Shown: positions 52-8,347 of the stretch, one piece after another | How positions within the stretch are numbered: position 1 is the stretch's first letter | How the letters are laid out: each line of letters opens with the position of its first letter | From: Candidatus Nitrotoga sp. BS | GTDB taxonomy: Bacteria > Pseudomonadota > Gammaproteobacteria > Burkholderiales > Gallionellaceae | NCBI RefSeq assembly: GCF_927797785.1 | Contig: NZ_CAKMLL010000040.1 | Span: 1 to 55,402, forward strand | Length of the DNA stretch: 55,402 nucleotides | Direction: 5' to 3' | Translations under genes and position numbers: made by a program | Notes under the pieces: model-generated | Databases searched by the model: none | The model's input: the letters and a program-made list of their open reading frames with translations, nothing else | What the model was told of the DNA's origin: nothing

Positions 52-476
52 GGAGTAATGAGATCTCGCGTACAGATCGTTATTTACATCCGTTTGTGGT
101 GATGCTGGTCGATGTTGATTATTTTAAACGAATCAATGATGGCTATGGTCACCAAGAGGGTGACAAAGTTTTGATATGCCTCTCTTCCCTTTTAAGTAAA
201 GCATTTCGCCGTACCGATAGCGTCGGTCGTTGGGGCGGTGAAGAGTTTTTGGTTGTTTGCCCTGAGCTGGATCAGCAGACCGCACTGAAGTTGGCTGAAC
301 TATTTCGAGAAAAAATTGAGCAGTATGATTTTGGAGTGGCTGGAAAAGTGACAGTAAGCATAGGGCTAGCGATTTACGAGAAGGGCGGGACTATGGATAG
401 GCTGATTATGCGTGTTGATAATGCGTTATACCAAGCGAAGGATGGTGGGCGAAACAGAGTGGTGATGAGTGACTAG
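39..476 (+). pseudogene. Diguanylate cyclase GGDEF-domain fragment, 5' end lost
   Basis: This is the catalytic part of a diguanylate cyclase, which makes cyclic di-GMP from two GTP. Counting from a TTG at 39, the domain shows the metal-binding VDVDYFKRIND region (residues 24-34), an inhibitory RxxD site (RRTD, 57-60) and the GGEEF active motif (66-70), and it ends in the usual DNALYQAKDGGRNRV. The opening D-x-LTGLxNRR segment is not recognisable and the spacing to the first metal site is about seven residues short. The frame is open to the window edge, but the first 17 or so codons overlap an IS30-like end. The fragment therefore probably lost its sensory N-terminus to an insertion. Enzyme activity is doubtful without the full domain. 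Confidence 0.75.
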
Positions 477-530
477 GTTTTCGTTTGATAAAAAGGATAG
501 TCAGCAACGCAACGGGGCCGGGTCTTTCAA

Positions 531-760
531 TTATGCATTCTTGAGCGAAGTTTGATGGATCGCTCTATTGACAGTGGGATAATGCACCACAAAAGTATCG
601 GCAATTTGCTGCATCGTAATCACCGGACTCATGTGCCTTTTTTAGAATTTGGAAGGCTTCAACATAAAAATCGAGCGGTTTCCCCCAACGGGTGGCAAGC
701 CAATACCAGTGCGGATAAATCCCTTTTTGATGCTGTATTGCAAGTCCTGCCGAATTGCGT
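531..760 (-). pseudogene. Broken helix-turn-helix (transposase-type) remnant
   Basis: On the minus strand the C-terminal part reads ITMQQIADTFVVHYPTVNRAI and ends at a TAA at 531-533. This is a helix-turn-helix of the kind found at the C-terminus of REP-associated (IS200-like) tyrosine transposases. A frameshift at about 590-600 separates it from an upstream stretch in another frame containing WYWLATRWGKPLDFYVEAFQ. No start codon or catalytic domain is visible further up. I therefore read it as a decayed gene tail. The family assignment is tentative; any HTH protein with this ending would fit. Confidence 0.4.
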
Positions 761-857
761 GTGACCCCTCGGCGTATATTACCCGCAACATGCCTCCAAG
801 ACTGTGAACAACTTTGTTTGCTTGGTGTGTGAGAGTTTCTACGATGGCCTCATCCGG

Positions 858-2051
858 TCACACCAAAATTCCCACCAGAATTGCCATGCTTAAGAAAAAT
901 AAAGCGCCCGCCGCTATCCATTTGAGATTGCCGCCATAAAACAACTGTCCGCGCACCTGACGGATGATGATAGCGGTGCGTTGTGCTGACAAGCCGGGGT
1001 AGGTTTGCCAGCCAGCATCATCGGGTGGCAGCGCTTCCGAAAAGAGTGTCGTCTCAGCTCTGTGCAAATAATGCCGTACGATTTCAGCGTTGCCTTCTGT
1101 ATGGTCGAGCAATAGTCGTCGGCGCTGGGCGGGCGATAGCCAGGTTGCGATTGTGCTGCCATGTTCTGCTGCTACGCCTGGACTGAACGCGGTCGTTGCA
1201 TCGAGTATCTGTGCTCGGCGTATCAGCGGCCAGCCAAACCAGCGATGCCGATGCAGCTGCCGGATCAGCTCCACTTGATCGCGTCCTGGCGTGGCATTGA
1301 CCGATTCCCGCTCTGGCGCTGGCGTCACCCATGCGGGTGAAATCGTTTGTTGCAATGCGTGCTCGAAAAAGTCGACCACAATGCCAGTTGGCATCGTGGC
1401 GCGCTCATAAGGACGTATCAACATAGCCTCTGAGCCGAATTCAGCCGCCCAGCAAGCCAGTAGATGGTGCGTATTCAGCCTGGGAGTAAAAGCGCGCGCG
1501 AAGGTTTTAAACTCGATAGTCGGATCGCTGCTGCCTTTGACGTACTGCACGTAATGCGCGCCCAGCAGGTAATCCTGACGGCGGACATATGCGATTACGA
1601 AAGGCTGATATTGAAATGCCTGAGCCAGCCCGGACAAAATTTTCACCCCAGCCGTCAGGTAATCCATATTAAGATCAATCTGGTGCGCGGTTTGCATGTC
1701 GAATAAATCCTCGGCTGACACGACGATGGTATCGGCACCGATGCGGCGGCGCTCATCCTCAATCGCATCAAACATGGCGCGCGAGCAATCGTAGGGACGA
1801 CAAATAGCACGTTGCCTGCGCCAAAAATGCTGCGCCGCGTCTGCTTGTCCGCAATTGTGCATGGCTTCATGGCGCAGCAAGGCAAACATGCGGTAGTGAC
1901 TGATCCGGTATGCGCGCACCTTTTGATGCACGGTTTGATCGACGGGATACAAAATGCCGCGTTGCGCAAGAGCGGCGCTGTGCAGGTGCAAAAATGACTG
2001 CAGTGCTTTCGACCCGGTTTTGTGCTGACCAATGTGAATAATGATTTTCAC
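858..2051 (-). CDS. Sulfotransferase-like protein with C-terminal membrane anchor
   Basis: The protein starts MKIIIHIGQHKTGS, the 5'-phosphosulfate-binding loop of PAPS-dependent sulfotransferases (HIGxxKTGTT type), at residues 6-14. A central stretch (VIAYVRRQDYLLGAHYVQYV) resembles the 3'-phosphate-binding region (R..R...S/Y) of the same fold. The last 20 residues form a hydrophobic helix, suggesting a tail anchor. I chose the GTG at 2051 because it puts the loop at the very N-terminus and leaves 11 nt after the upstream methyltransferase stop. An ATG at 2114 would overlap that gene. Length is 397 aa. The substrate is unknown; a surface glycan is plausible given the neighbouring methyltransferase. 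It appears intact, but its operon has lost its front. Confidence 0.6.
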   Translation of the reverse strand: MKIIIHIGQHKTGSKALQSFLHLHSAALAQRGILYPVDQTVHQKVRAYRISHYRMFALLRHEAMHNCGQADAAQHFWRRQRAICRPYDCSRAMFDAIEDERRRIGADTIVVSAEDLFDMQTAHQIDLNMDYLTAGVKILSGLAQAFQYQPFVIAYVRRQDYLLGAHYVQYVKGSSDPTIEFKTFARAFTPRLNTHHLLACWAAEFGSEAMLIRPYERATMPTGIVVDFFEHALQQTISPAWVTPAPERESVNATPGRDQVELIRQLHRHRWFGWPLIRRAQILDATTAFSPGVAAEHGSTIATWLSPAQRRRLLLDHTEGNAEIVRHYLHRAETTLFSEALPPDDAGWQTYPGLSAQRTAIIIRQVRGQLFYGGNLKWIAAGALFFLSMAILVGILV

Positions 2052-2062
2052 TTTTGCTACAG

Positions 2063-2485
2063 TCACAATTTGCGCCCCGATCCGATGAAACGTGGCGGCT
2101 GCATCACCGTGCATACAGAAATATCAACCAAGCCAGCAAGAAAGATTTCGCGCACCGCTTGTTCCGAAAAACGGTGATAGTCGCCCGGAAAAAGATGCTC
2201 ACCCAAAGTGACCGTGCTAGCACGTAATACATCACTGTTGACGAGGCGCGCAAAGGCCTTCAGCAGCCATCCCGTTACCGGCTTATTGCGCAGAAAAGAT
2301 TGTGCGCCCATACCTTCATATCCCGGTACGCCGATCATAATCAGGCCGCCCGGTGCCGTAACCCGATGGATTTCAGCCAGCGTTTTCCAGAAATATGGAT
2401 CGTGCTCCAATGTGGCGTTGCAAAGCACGGCCTCGAACTGTCCGTCGACAAAATCGGGCATGTGGTTGGCGTTGCCATGAAGCAA
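2063..2485 (-). pseudogene. Class I SAM methyltransferase, N-terminus lost
   Basis: The 140 aa preserve the later half of a Rossmann-fold methyltransferase (Methyltransf_11 type). This covers the DGQFEAVLCNATLEHDPYFWKTLAEIHRV segment with the post-motif II acidic and histidine residues, followed by TAPGGLIMIGVPG. Motif I (the glycine-rich SAM loop), which should lie some 60-80 residues earlier, is absent. An in-frame TAA lies five codons before the first possible start (TTG, 2485). The sequence upstream becomes AT-rich and non-coding. It therefore looks truncated by recombination rather than mis-started. It probably once formed a glycan-modifying pair with the sulfotransferase-like gene that follows it on the same strand. 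Confidence 0.7.
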
Positions 2486-3234: not shown

Positions 3235-4161
3235 ATGAATAGTGATCAAAAAATTGAGGAGTTGAATCAGTCTGTGGGTATAGAGTGCTGGTCGGCGGAA
3301 CAAATGCAACAAGCACGAGCCGCGGCAGCAAAGGAAGTTGGATTTGAAAAAATTGTATTCCGCGATAAATTAGATACTCCTGAAATGGTGGTGCTACCGG
3401 CAGGAAGTTATGGCATGGGTGAAGCATTTGAGAAGCATAAGGTTACCTTTTCTCGTCCCTTTGCGGTAGGGAAGTATCCGGTTACGGTGGCAGAATGGAA
3501 GCGTTTCGTTGATAGGTTGCGGCCCGAAGAAGAAGTGTTGCCAGGTGTTGGAGCGGGATATTTGGCGGGTACAGGAACAGTACGCGGGCATCACCAGACT
3601 TTACTCAAATCCCCTACGAAGGCAACTGATTTGCATCACGAAGTTTTAAGTGATGTTAAAGAGACTAACAGTGACTTGCCGGTAACCAATATCAATTGGT
3701 TTGATGCGCAGGATTATGTGCGTTGGCTATCGACTCAGACAGGTCATACCTACCGTTTGCTGACCGAGGCAGAATGGGAGTACGCATGTCGTGCAGGGTC
3801 AGTGACAGAGTACTACTGGGGTGATGAGATAGGGCAGAATAATTGCAATTGCCAATATAGCGAGAGCGAATGGAGCTGTAAAAGTGCCTCGCCCGTGGGC
3901 AGTTTTAAACCGAACGCTTTTGGCTTGCATGACATGCTTGGAAATGCATGGGAGTGGGTAGAGGATCCATGGCATGAAACTTACGAAGGGGCACCGGATA
4001 ACGGAACGGCTTGGATGTCCGAAGGCAACCGACAGTGGCGCGTGTTACGCGGGGGGTGCTGGGATAGCGATCCGCGGGATGCGCGATCTGCCCTTCGTTT
4101 ATGGATTGAACCTTCAATTCGGAACTATGGTATTGGATTCCGAGTTGCCAGGACGCTGTAA
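3235..4161 (+). CDS. FGE-sulfatase (SUMF1-like) domain protein, array copy 1
   Basis: This 308-aa protein is almost entirely an FGE-sulfatase domain. It has PEMVVLPAGSYGMGE near residue 47, KYPVTVAEWKRFV, LPVTNINWFDAQDYVRWL, LTEAEWEYACRAG, FGLHDMLGNAWEWVED, then RVLRGGCW and a final GFRVARTL. ATG 3235 has a well-placed CGGAG site; the longer frame from 3172 lacks one. Formylglycine-generating enzymes need a cysteine pair in the C-terminal segment. Here the region after GGCW has none, so sulfatase activation is unlikely and a ligand-binding C-type-lectin-like fold is more probable. It has no signal peptide or membrane helix. Unlike copies 2-4 it lacks the N-terminal PEGA-like domain, and it carries a roughly 35-residue loop insertion around residues 110-145. 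Confidence 0.85.
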   Translation: MNSDQKIEELNQSVGIECWSAEQMQQARAAAAKEVGFEKIVFRDKLDTPEMVVLPAGSYGMGEAFEKHKVTFSRPFAVGKYPVTVAEWKRFVDRLRPEEEVLPGVGAGYLAGTGTVRGHHQTLLKSPTKATDLHHEVLSDVKETNSDLPVTNINWFDAQDYVRWLSTQTGHTYRLLTEAEWEYACRAGSVTEYYWGDEIGQNNCNCQYSESEWSCKSASPVGSFKPNAFGLHDMLGNAWEWVEDPWHETYEGAPDNGTAWMSEGNRQWRVLRGGCWDSDPRDARSALRLWIEPSIRNYGIGFRVARTL

Positions 4162-4381
4162 GTAAGACGACGGCATAGTGATTGAATTTAAATTTGCACT
4201 TTCCCTACACTGCTGGATAATGGATTGCATCACGTCAGTCGTAGATATGGAAGCCGTCCTAAGAAACTAAACCTGGGCGGAGATGCCCACTCTGGTTTGT
4301 CACACCCAGCCTGTTGCCTTGTTTGCCACGGTAATCTGCTGGGCGTTATTAAAATGTGAAGTCTGAAAGGGAGATGATTGG

Positions 4382-5566
4382 GTGATTGATCAGGAAGAGC
4401 AAAAACATCAGGAAACCGAACATGGTCAGGTAGCTACTTTGCTGCTAGAGACGGATATGGACTGTTGCATCACGATCGATGGTGAGGATCAGGGCATTCT
4501 AAAAAGAGATTACCCCCGCAGTTTCCTTTTGCCGTTGGGGTATCCTCTTATTCATGCCGCTACGCAAGATGGATTGATGGGAAAAGAATGGGTGCAGCCA
4601 CTTTATCGGGAAGAAGATATCGAGCATTTTATTAATCTGGCGGAAGAGCATACCCAAGCAAGAGTCGCACTTGAAGAGGAAATGCGGAAGCCGTTGGGCA
4701 TAGAATGTTTGTCAGTGGAGCAGATACGGCAGGAGCAACTGGAGGCTGCGAAGTCTGCGGGGCTTGATATAGAGTTCCGTGATGGGTTGGATCATCCGGA
4801 AATGGTGGTGATACCGGCAGGCAGCTATCGAATGGGAGAGGTATCTGATAAACATAAGGTCACTATCACTCGTGCTTTTGCCGTAGGTAAATATCCAGTT
4901 ACGGTGGAGGAATGGAGAAGATACGTTATGGCGAAGAGCGTAATCAAAGAAGAGCCGATGAGCGTTCACTTTGGTGCTGCAGGTGATGGCAGCGATGTGA
5001 AGCCGTACATCGAGCCGGAAGACCCTCCCCATTGTCCTTCTAATAATGGCTGGATAGGCACTACGCTGCCGGTTACTAACGTTAGTTGGTTTGATGCACA
5101 GGATTATGCGCGTTGGCTAACTGCCGAAACTGGCCAAGCCTATCGTTTGTTGACTGAAGCGGAATGGGAATACGTCTGTCGTGCTGGCTCTGTGACCGAG
5201 TATTATTGGGGTGATGAAATAGGCAATATGAATTGCAACTGCCAGGATAGCGGTAGTAAATGGAGTTGTAAGCGTGCGTCGCGAGTAGGCAATTTTGCGC
5301 CTAACGTTTTTGGTGTGCATGACATGTTGGGAAATGTGTGGGAATGGGTGGAAGACCACTGGCATAATAATTACGAGGGTGCTCCCTCAGACGAGACTGC
5401 TTGGACTTATGGAGGTAACCAGCAGGGACGCGTAGTGCGTGGTGGCTCTTGGGATTGCAGCCCTAAACTTGCTCGCTCTGCCAGTCGCGCGCGAGCCGTA
5501 ACGTCAAGCCGATACGACGATTTTGGGTTTCGTGTTGCCAGCACGTTGGATGTCCCATCCGTTTAA
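4382..5566 (+). CDS. PEGA-like plus FGE-sulfatase domain protein, array copy 2
   Basis: The 394-aa protein has three parts. Residues about 20-85 form a small beta-rich domain (LLLETDMDCCITIDGEDQG, then a basic and proline segment, then LPLGYPLIHA) resembling a PEGA domain. A charged helical linker at about 90-125 follows. An FGE-sulfatase domain runs from PEMVVIPAGSYRMGE to GFRVASTL. The GTG start lies about 8 nt after GGGAG, and copy 3 has the same layout. A cysteine follows GGSW at the position of the first FGE catalytic cysteine, but the partner is missing, so I do not infer FGE activity. The tail runs eight residues past the usual end. No export signal is visible, so it is probably cytoplasmic. 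Confidence 0.85.
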   Translation: MIDQEEQKHQETEHGQVATLLLETDMDCCITIDGEDQGILKRDYPRSFLLPLGYPLIHAATQDGLMGKEWVQPLYREEDIEHFINLAEEHTQARVALEEEMRKPLGIECLSVEQIRQEQLEAAKSAGLDIEFRDGLDHPEMVVIPAGSYRMGEVSDKHKVTITRAFAVGKYPVTVEEWRRYVMAKSVIKEEPMSVHFGAAGDGSDVKPYIEPEDPPHCPSNNGWIGTTLPVTNVSWFDAQDYARWLTAETGQAYRLLTEAEWEYVCRAGSVTEYYWGDEIGNMNCNCQDSGSKWSCKRASRVGNFAPNVFGVHDMLGNVWEWVEDHWHNNYEGAPSDETAWTYGGNQQGRVVRGGSWDCSPKLARSASRARAVTSSRYDDFGFRVASTLDVPSV

Positions 5567-5592
5567 CTGCTTCCCTTCTGTTTTTGACCTTT

Positions 5593-5845
5593 GAGCTTCT
5601 TGCAAAACTATTTTTGCTAAAAATGCTTAAAAAAGTAGCAAATTTTTGATGTTAATTGATGAAAGTTGTAGTTTTATAGCCGGGTAAACGGTTGCTGAAA
5701 GTGCGCAATAATTCACAACCCCTCCCAATCGCGTCAAATGGGCTTTTGGTGAGTTTTGGGCTATTTTGACCACATGTAACGATGTCACTGTTTCAGCGCA
5801 GACAAGGCTGGTTTTAAAAATTCCGACTACTTTTGCAAGAGGCTC
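5593..5845. mobile_element. 253-bp MITE-like element with 4-bp target duplication
   Basis: Terminal inverted repeats are visible: the left end reads GAGCTTCTTGCAAAACTA, and the right end, reverse-complemented, reads GAGCCTCTTGCAAAAGTA (16 of 18 identical). The element is flanked on both sides by CTTT (5589-5592 and 5846-5849), a 4-bp target-site duplication. It has no coding capacity. This is the structure of a non-autonomous miniature element mobilised by a full-length relative elsewhere; the 4-bp duplication would suit an IS5-like transposase. It sits in the gap between array copies 2 and 3, which explains why that gap (452 bp) is much longer than the others. Confidence 0.8.
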
Positions 5846-6018
5846 CTTTATGTATATTAATCTCACTTTAAGTGACGAAAAGTTTCGGAGTAATCTCAAT
5901 TTAGTCTTGGCGCGATAGGCCAGCTATCACTTTTGTAAAGTCTCAGAAGATTGCGCTGAAAGCAAAGGCTGATTTAATTCATCATTAGAATTGGGGTAAG
6001 CAGCGAGAGGTGATTGGG

Positions 6019-7107
6019 GTGTCTAATATGGAAGAACAGAAACCTAAGGAGATTGAGCGCAGTCGTAAAGCTATCTTGCTGCTCAAGACTGACATGGACT
6101 GTCGCCTCATGGTGAATAGTGATAATCATGGCGCACTGCAGAAAAATACGCCACTCAGTATCGAGTTGCCCTTAGGTAGTCATCTTATCAACGTCATCTC
6201 GCAAGATGGCCTGCTGGAGAAGGAATGGACACAGGATTTAAACCATGAAGTGCAGGTTGTCTGTTTGATTCAACTGAAGGAAGAGTTTGCCCAGCTTCAA
6301 GCAAAACGTAAAGAGGAAGTGGGCGAACCGCTGGGCATAGAATGTTGGTCGGTGGATCAGATACAACAAATACAAATGGCGGCGGCAACCGAAGTTGGAC
6401 TTGCCAAAGTTTTCCGCGATGGGCCGAATTCTCCTGAGATGGTTGTAATACCGGCAGGTGGCTATCGCAGGGGGGAGGCCTTTAATAAATACAAGGTTGT
6501 CATTACTCACCATTTTGCAATAGGTAAATACCCGGTTACGGTAGCGGAATGGAAGTGTTATGTTGAAACGGGCGAAGTATCCTATTCCCCCTCGGATAAC
6601 GATTGGGAAGGCGATAACTTACCGGTGACCAATGTTAGTTGGTTTGACGCACAGAACTTCGCGCGCTGGCTGTCAACCCAGACAGGTAAGACCTATCGCT
6701 TGTTGTCTGAAGCGGAATGGGAGTACGCCTGTCGTGCCGGATCGATAACAGAATATTATTGGGGTGACGAGATAGGGCATAACAATTGCAACTGTCAAGA
6801 TAGCGGGAGCGAATGGAGTCGTAAACGTGCATCGCCAGTGGGTAGCTTTGCGCCCAACGCTTTCGGGCTGCATGACATGCTGGGTAACATATGGGAATGG
6901 TTAGAGGATATATGGCATGATAGTTACGAAGGGGCTCCGGCCGATGGCAAGCCTTGGTCGTCTGAAGGTAACCAACTGGGTCGCGTGATGCGCGGCGGCT
7001 CTTGGAGTAGCTTTCCGAGATACGCTCGTTGCGCCCATCGTCATGGAAGTGTGCCGACAATAAGAAATTTTAATTTCGGCCTTCGTCTGGCCAGGACGCT
7101 GCCGTAA
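6019..7107 (+). CDS. PEGA-like plus FGE-sulfatase domain protein, array copy 3
   Basis: The layout is the same as copy 2: a PEGA-like domain (ILLLKTDMDCRLMVNSDNHG to LPLGSHLINVISQDGL), a charged linker ending PLGIECWSVDQIQQ, and an FGE-sulfatase domain from PEMVVIPAGGYRRGE to LRLARTL. Length is 362 aa from the GTG at 6019, which lies 8 nt after GAGAGG, as in copy 2. GTG 6010 and ATG 6028 are alternatives. The NCNCQD segment is shared by all four copies; the SCK that follows it in the others is SRK here. The C-terminal variable segment (7006-7077) contains one cysteine in ARCAHR, not in the FGE position. Catalytic FGE activity is therefore not supported. Confidence 0.85.
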   Translation: MSNMEEQKPKEIERSRKAILLLKTDMDCRLMVNSDNHGALQKNTPLSIELPLGSHLINVISQDGLLEKEWTQDLNHEVQVVCLIQLKEEFAQLQAKRKEEVGEPLGIECWSVDQIQQIQMAAATEVGLAKVFRDGPNSPEMVVIPAGGYRRGEAFNKYKVVITHHFAIGKYPVTVAEWKCYVETGEVSYSPSDNDWEGDNLPVTNVSWFDAQNFARWLSTQTGKTYRLLSEAEWEYACRAGSITEYYWGDEIGHNNCNCQDSGSEWSRKRASPVGSFAPNAFGLHDMLGNIWEWLEDIWHDSYEGAPADGKPWSSEGNQLGRVMRGGSWSSFPRYARCAHRHGSVPTIRNFNFGLRLARTLP

Positions 7108-7189
7108 ACAGTAGCTATTTTATTTTAATTTTTTTAAAAAAATATAAATTTGTGAACCCTCTCCATTTTTTTCAACTCTTCAACACTGG

Positions 7190-8347
7190 ATGGTATTTAT
7201 GAGTAACGAACAACGCGAAGACCATCTCAAAAATCCAGATTGCGGTAGTGAGTCTACAACTAATTCTAACGCTTCACCTCGGCAGATTTCTTTGTTGTTG
7301 GAGTCCGACATGGACTGTTATCTCGAGGTGAATGGCGAAGATCAGGGTCAACTGGATAAAAACACGCCCCGTCAGTTTTTTCTGCCCGTAGGTAGTCACC
7401 TTATTAATGCCATCACGCAAGATGGATTAGTGGAAAAAGAATGGGTGCAGGCATCTGGTGATGAAGAGGTTACCAATTTCATCTGTCTGGCGGAAGAGCA
7501 TGCACAGGCTCAGGCAAAGCTTAGGGAGCAGAAAGAAGAGCTGAGCCGACCGCTGGGCATCGAGTGCTGGTCTGTAGAACAAATTCAACAGAAACAAATG
7601 GCGGCGGCAACCGAAGCTGGGCTTGCCAAAGTTTTTCGCGATGGCCCGGATATGCCTGAGATGGTGGTGATACCGGCAGGTAGTTACCGTATGGGCGAAG
7701 CGTCTAACAAACATAAGGTTGCCATTGCTCGCCCTTTTGCAGTAGGAAAGTACCCGGTTACAGTGGCGGAATGGAAGCGTTTCGTCGCATCCGGCGAGAC
7801 AACCTACTCTCCTGTAGATAACGGTTGGACAGGCGACAATCTGCCAGTGACCAATGTTAATTTTATTCACGCACAAGCCTATGTGCGCTGGCTATCAAAG
7901 CTGACAGGCAAGAGCTACCGCTTGTTGACAGAGGCTGAATGGGAATACGCGTGCCGTGCCGGCTCGATGACGGAATATTACTGGGGTGATGAGCTGGGCA
8001 AAAACAATTGCAACTGCCAAGACAGCAAAAGTGAATGGAGTTGTAAGCGCGCCTCGCCAGTAGGTAGTTTTGCGTCTAACGTGTTTGGGCTGCATGACAT
8101 GCTGGGAAACGTATGGGAATGGGTTGAGGATGCATGGCATGACACTTATAGAGGGGCTCCGGCAGATGGCAAGGCTTGGTCGACTGGCGGTGCAATAAGC
8201 ACCCTTAGCAATCAAGAATGGCGAGTGCTACGTGGCGGTTCCTGGATCATTGATCCGAGGGACGCGCGCTCTGCTGTGCGTTTCATGAGCGATCAATCGA
8301 GCCGCGACTCGTATACAGGCATCCGCGTTGCCAGGACATTGCTATAA
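7190..8347 (+). CDS. PEGA-like plus FGE-sulfatase domain protein, array copy 4
   Basis: This 385-aa protein has the same PEGA-like domain (SLLLESDMDCYLEVNGEDQG to LPVGSHLINAITQDGL), a helical linker and an FGE-sulfatase domain. It is 82 bp downstream of copy 3, so co-transcription is likely. The start could also be the ATG at 7199. WFDAQ of the other copies is replaced by FIHAQ, and a small insertion (GGAISTLS) precedes the NQEWRVLRGGSW motif. The C-terminal variable segment has no cysteine, so FGE chemistry is excluded by the usual criterion. I infer a binding rather than catalytic role; the ligand is unknown. Confidence 0.85.
   Translation: MVFMSNEQREDHLKNPDCGSESTTNSNASPRQISLLLESDMDCYLEVNGEDQGQLDKNTPRQFFLPVGSHLINAITQDGLVEKEWVQASGDEEVTNFICLAEEHAQAQAKLREQKEELSRPLGIECWSVEQIQQKQMAAATEAGLAKVFRDGPDMPEMVVIPAGSYRMGEASNKHKVAIARPFAVGKYPVTVAEWKRFVASGETTYSPVDNGWTGDNLPVTNVNFIHAQAYVRWLSKLTGKSYRLLTEAEWEYACRAGSMTEYYWGDELGKNNCNCQDSKSEWSCKRASPVGSFASNVFGLHDMLGNVWEWVEDAWHDTYRGAPADGKAWSTGGAISTLSNQEWRVLRGGSWIIDPRDARSAVRFMSDQSSRDSYTGIRVARTLL

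Follow-up and report, generated by a model that had tools for sequence, protein, structure and literature searches.

In this work, we analysed a 55,402-nucleotide stretch of Candidatus Nitrotoga sp. BS (contig NZ_CAKMLL010000040.1 of assembly GCF_927797785.1, hereafter the window), which carries an array of four genes encoding proteins with a domain of the formylglycine-generating enzyme (FGE)/C-type-lectin fold. Near its 3' end, each gene holds a segment of 24 codons that a first-pass annotation of this DNA had described as hypervariable and had likened to the variable region of a diversity-generating retroelement (DGR). Our results make it probable that the array consists of four old paralogs that each keep a fixed segment of their own, presumably for ligand binding, and that no DGR is currently rewriting them.

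The conservation of the segment within each copy is the main evidence for this. Across the ortholog groups of the genus, identity within copies was 0.935 in the segment versus 0.908 in the other 198 domain columns, whereas between copies it was 0.36 in the segment versus 0.71 in those columns. The pairwise ratio of nonsynonymous to synonymous change (dN/dS) in the segment was 0.022, 0.041, 0.033 and 0.070 for copies 1 to 4 (14, 15, 15 and 13 distinct sequences, respectively), against 0.060, 0.067, 0.083 and 0.077 outside it, while the same ortholog pairs differed at 44-51% of synonymous sites. Differences between orthologs are largely synonymous and show no concentration in the segment. Since orthologs do not differ most in the segment, as DGR rewriting predicts, these data point to fixed specialisation and not to hypervariation. 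The term hypervariable must therefore be given up for a segment that is 93.5% identical, with a dN/dS of 0.02-0.07, within copies across the genus and that diverges only between paralogs. This divergence is marked: 11 of the 24 segment sites are fixed (in at least 90% of sequences) within copies yet different between them, versus 27 of 198 elsewhere (Fisher P 0.0005). Among 199 slices of 24 columns taken along the FGE domain, only four are less conserved between paralogs than the segment, and these four overlap one another at one length-variable loop.

The paralogs are also older than the sampled species. Array genes are present in 15 of 19 Candidatus Nitrotoga genomes, and relatives within the genus show 79-89% identity. 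A quick maximum-likelihood tree that leaves out the segment groups the array genes into a single clade, within which every copy has a supported clade of its own that takes in the distant loci L055 and L056; this places the duplications before the split of the sampled species. In this tree 54 of 147 inner branches are open, deep branches are unresolved, and the root, placed at the midpoint, is arbitrary, its position being dictated by a very long false row (L166_RALSPTMREFVD) that the tree retains.

All four products belong to the FGE-sulfatase family PF03781, with scores of 175-191 bits (Pfam gathering cut-off 23.3), and copies 2, 3 and 4 are 60%, 64% and 67% identical to copy 1. Re-reading and alignment bore out that exactly 24 codons follow the GGSW or GGCW motif in every gene, at the positions first given for them, and that only Pro4, Ala7, Arg8, Ala10, Arg12 and Arg20 are common to the four segments. 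Copy 4, modelled with AlphaFold2 (mean pLDDT 89), shows an FGE/C-type-lectin domain in which the segment (residues 353-376) comes after a strand at 344-348, contains a strand at 364-368 and ends before a strand at 380-383. Its nearest neighbour is PvdO of Pseudomonas aeruginosa (PDB 5hha), which is both the best sequence match (E 6e-53) and the best fold match (Foldseek E 9e-24, 36% identity); in the alignment, PvdO shares with the array the W, 24 residues and GFR spacing as well as P4, R8, R12 and R20. Unlike PvdO, three of the four array copies carry an additional N-terminal beta domain, and the copies are not PvdO orthologs, as they score only 157-174 bits with the NCBIfam PvdO model (cut-off 500). 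PvdO, a biosynthetic enzyme, is not known to be diversified. The extra domain of copies 2-4 is a small beta-sandwich with weak fold matches (best E 5e-4), and a profile search gave no Pfam family over the cut-off for it. Formylglycine-generating enzyme itself (6muj, 1y1e) is of the same fold family, PF03781. At the place of the segment, 6muj has a CHDSYC stretch, which has a copper role; no counterpart of this Cys pair exists in any of the four copies, and a catalytic formylglycine-generating enzyme was rejected as an identity for them on that ground.

The same fold is used by DGR variable proteins such as TvpA (2y3c), which matches the copy 4 model with a Foldseek E of 6e-13. In solved DGR proteins the variable residues make up a ligand-binding site (PMC6328139; PMC5006420), and FGE-type domains targeted by DGRs have been described in other systems (PMC7159879). 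The array and DGR targets have in common a C-terminal segment of the variable type on this fold. Unlike TvpA or the DGR target of Accumulibacter (L065), whose C-terminal segment resembles those of the array and has the same register, the array is accompanied by no reverse transcriptase (RT), Avd or template that we found, and its segment is fixed within each copy across the genus.

Based on these data, duplication most probably gave rise to four tandem paralogs of the FGE-sulfatase fold before the sampled Candidatus Nitrotoga species split, and the 24-residue segment of each has been fixed and is now under purifying selection. The segment may line a ligand or substrate pocket, the binding face in DGR variable proteins. 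If it does so as in the DGR variable proteins of this fold, the four copies would bind four different ligands, substrates or partners, in a fixed division of labour with no ongoing diversification. On this reading the array is an ordinary but clear-cut example of specialised paralogs, built on a fold shared with DGR targets. Three points weigh against this reading. The binding role is one that we infer from the fold. Copy 4 is the least clear case, with a segment dN/dS (0.070) close to that of the rest of its domain (0.077) and 13 of 24 sites invariant. Finally, the decoupling of segment from flanks between paralogs, detailed below, is like that of DGR targets, and ordinary duplication alone does not predict it.

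Genuine DGRs in relatives give a standard for the comparison. Outside the genus, two loci among 77 (L065 and L085) hold complete DGRs with a target, bAvd, an RT with the GLPxGxLxSQ motif and a template with Asn codons, and both make use of this 24-residue segment; the motif is also found at 9 of 11 order-level RT loci. Our detector found further target/template pairs at the order-level loci L123, L125 and L129 (L150 being the same place as L125). Mismatches fell at template adenines in 15/16 and 19/21 cases at L065, 18/22 at L085, 16/16 at L123, 14/14 and 10/10 at L125, and 11/11 and 14/14 at L129. Aligned with the segment, the template Asn codons occupy sites 1, 2, 6, 13, 15, 19, 21 and 23 in all five templates and sites 3 and 22 in four of the five (site 3 being Lys in the L065 template); the sites picked out in the first-pass annotation were 1-3, 6, 11, 15 and 21-24. 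In its position, the segment corresponds to the variable region that DGRs use on the FGE/C-type-lectin fold. The proposed likeness to such a region is thus right about the 24-residue register, which is that of the Asn codons in real templates; it is not supported as regards hypervariability or a working target. Two sets of PF03781 domains might be remote DGR targets: L083 with L103 (one gammaproteobacterial record) and L091 with L098 (one Rubrivivax metagenome-assembled genome) have flank identities of 0.79-0.91 and segment identities of 0.29-0.54, and a motif scan of the fetched stretches caught no RT.

These comparisons bear on an alternative that we consider possible, if clearly less likely, namely that an ancestral DGR of the genus diversified several target paralogs and was then lost with its RT, Avd and template, leaving four useful variants that were fixed and kept by purifying selection as specialised binders. 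The register shared with the five real templates agrees with such an origin, and the codon evidence is mixed. Our recount upheld the pyrimidine-ending codons (NNY) at the ten sites first chosen (10+10+10+7 = 37/40). At the eight sites defined by all templates, NNY codons number 29/32 in the array, 375/416 in outgroup rows with the same motif and 127/176 in same-motif DGR-negative rows, an excess of the array over the last group with a resampling P of 0.017 that does not allow for the relatedness of the four copies. With the ten sites at which four or all five of the templates have Asn, the counts are 36/40 versus 157/220 (P 0.010, with the same reservation). However, where codons differ, the third-base class agrees no better in the segment (68/88) than outside it in these genes (262/368; P 0.29). 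The pyrimidine signature, offered at first as a hint of DGR activity, is indeed commoner than in DGR-negative genes, but remains only weakly informative.

The decoupling of the segment from its flanks also speaks for a DGR past. At a flank identity of 0.65-0.75, segment identity is 0.36 between array paralogs (494 pairs) and 0.35 in pairs including a confirmed DGR target (13 pairs), compared with 0.28 in outgroup pairs (72, a mean lowered by the mis-framed L092, which was kept in) and 0.63 in DGR-negative pairs (22), an imperfect contrast, since most control pairs are orthologs and pairs are not independent. In these comparisons a DGR-negative genome is one in which a single query RT gave no match at E <= 1e-20. 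The decoupling comparison used nine of the 11 genomes first labelled DGR-positive and excluded G067 (group II type motif) and G075 (no readable motif), whereas in the codon counts G067 was placed in the DGR-negative group and L092 was left out. Rows whose segments were not exactly 24 residues long, or whose open reading frames failed a GN.EW-type context check, were left out of the counts, and the 60 comparison stretches were picked among the matches listed. A second case of divergent segments between similar paralogs occurs in G042, a genome of the same family and another genus that has no DGR RT match: its PF03781 paralogs L182/L214 and L214/L215 have flank identities of 0.72 and 0.69 and a segment identity of 0.21.

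In the tree without the segment, the branch above the array and its neighbours divides the confirmed DGR targets, with four rows to either side, which also suits descent from a DGR target; the deep branches of this tree are unresolved and its root is arbitrary. A precedent exists in Treponema denticola, where isolates that lack RT and template retain leftover DGR target genes (PMC4891356). On the other hand, this spacing and Arg pattern also occur in a biosynthetic enzyme, PvdO. At the thresholds used, moreover, none of the 19 genus genomes yielded a DGR RT or Avd, and neither the own genome nor the 11 Nitrotoga loci yielded a template. We still consider the reading as old, specialised paralogs the likelier one.

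The first-pass annotation had proposed to look for a DGR RT and a template elsewhere in the genome; own-genome searches found neither. A profile search of the own genome gave five PF00078 matches, none of DGR type. Three are of group II type (a group II intron on C70 and fragments on C79 and at C2:36126). Another is the RT of a type VIII retron (L003, G000:C115, 1240-3494; PADLOC RT_VIII, E 2e-170), whose DUF626_VIII partner (E 3e-124) is encoded convergently. The fifth is a Drt8-type defence RT of 547 aa (L002, G000:C2, 1090-2733; C2:20487; PADLOC E 8e-148), whose motif GLPVGGQCSR is close to the DGR form, yet distinct. At E <= 0.001, the DGR RT query matched 11 rows in 7 of the 19 genus genomes (best E 1.5e-25): seven are RTs with a QG motif, one (L137) is RT_UG17-like, two (L140 and L143) are Drt8, and one (E 5.6e-4) is a weak row left unclassified. 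By these searches, neither the own genome nor the 19 genus genomes yielded a DGR RT. The bAvd profile PF22296 had matches in 0/19 genus genomes but also in 0/14 control genomes, while it recognised the Avd of L065 and L085; some DGRs lack Avd. As for a template, one pattern search of the own genome gave 0 matches and another gave a single match, inside a different PF03781 gene; a DNA search of the own genome with the 3' end of copy 4 returned only itself and copy 1, and an ungapped detector found no target/template pair in the window or in the 11 Nitrotoga loci (L046-L056).

An active DGR acting in trans, its RT and template lying outside the assembled DNA, is thus very improbable. Some room for it is left by the draft state of the own assembly (121 contigs), but this assembly is 99.23% complete, the segments have hardly changed among the 13-15 distinct orthologs of each copy, and the ortholog sources include the single-contig genomes G001 and G009, in which the DGR RT query had no match. 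Just as improbable is that the segment is an unimportant loop under relaxed constraint, which would account for the strong differences between paralogs; the within-copy dN/dS speaks against it, no copy having a higher value in the segment than in the rest of the domain.

Coordinates of the array genes and of their 24-codon segments in the window
Feature	Position	Strand	Description
Copy 1	3235..4161	+	PF03781 (FGE-sulfatase) domain; no N-terminal beta domain; GGCW precedes the segment
Copy 2	4382..5566	+	N-terminal beta-sandwich domain, then PF03781 domain
Copy 3	6010..7107	+	N-terminal beta-sandwich domain, then PF03781 domain
Copy 4	7190..8347	+	N-terminal beta-sandwich domain, then PF03781 domain; AlphaFold2 model, mean pLDDT 89
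Copy 1 segment DSDPRDARSALRLWIEPSIRNYGI	4063..4134	+	21/24 residues invariant (n=14 distinct orthologs)
Copy 2 segment DCSPKLARSASRARAVTSSRYDDF	5453..5524	+	19/24 residues invariant (n=15 distinct orthologs)
Copy 3 segment SSFPRYARCAHRHGSVPTIRNFNF	7006..7077	+	17/24 residues invariant (n=15 distinct orthologs)
Copy 4 segment IIDPRDARSAVRFMSDQSSRDSYT	8246..8317	+	13/24 residues invariant (n=13 distinct orthologs)

Downstream of the array, rubredoxin, thiD and thiE genes are found in the window and in 9 of 11 relatives' loci; there was no match at L047 and L056, the two loci whose fetched contig stretch does not contain these genes. Copies 2 and 3 are separated by an insertion resembling a miniature inverted-repeat transposable element (window 5593-5845, 253 bp, 18-nt imperfect terminal inverted repeats). 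Elsewhere in the own genome it matches two places, almost its whole length at 92% identity in one and 54 bases close to a contig end in the other. A separate PF03781 gene (L006, L066, L070) is kept across much of the genus with open frames of 486-549 aa; its segments start with KVNSLFM, KNHSLFM or KVHSLFM, and it groups apart from the array in the tree. Among the other RTs of the genus, one of the seven QG-motif rows is an RT-Cas1 fusion of 681 aa present in one Nitrotoga genome (L134, G014, 301-2346, minus strand; PADLOC Cas1_IIIb E 1e-114 over residues 13-642, Cas1 E 8e-86 over 349-670). L137 (G005, 1501-2067) is a candidate defence RT, nearest to RT_UG17 (PADLOC E 4e-59 over the 189 residues given), and L140 in G006 is a partial relative of the own-genome Drt8 (Drt8 E 5e-37).

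A full-text literature search for Nitrotoga together with formylglycine found no paper, the literature on these genes not having been searched more widely, and six related terms are all absent from the main text of the paper on the first Nitrotoga isolate (PMC6050957).

To conclude, our results correct a tempting DGR call: a segment that looks like a variable region in a single genome may be fixed paralog divergence, and orthologs decide the matter quickly. With four orthologous loci and 13-15 distinct sequences for each, the array is also a tractable test of whether diversity made by a DGR can be kept after loss of the retroelement. For Nitrotoga, our study flags a set of four uncharacterised proteins, present in 15 of the 19 genomes of the genus, which might each bind a ligand or partner of its own.

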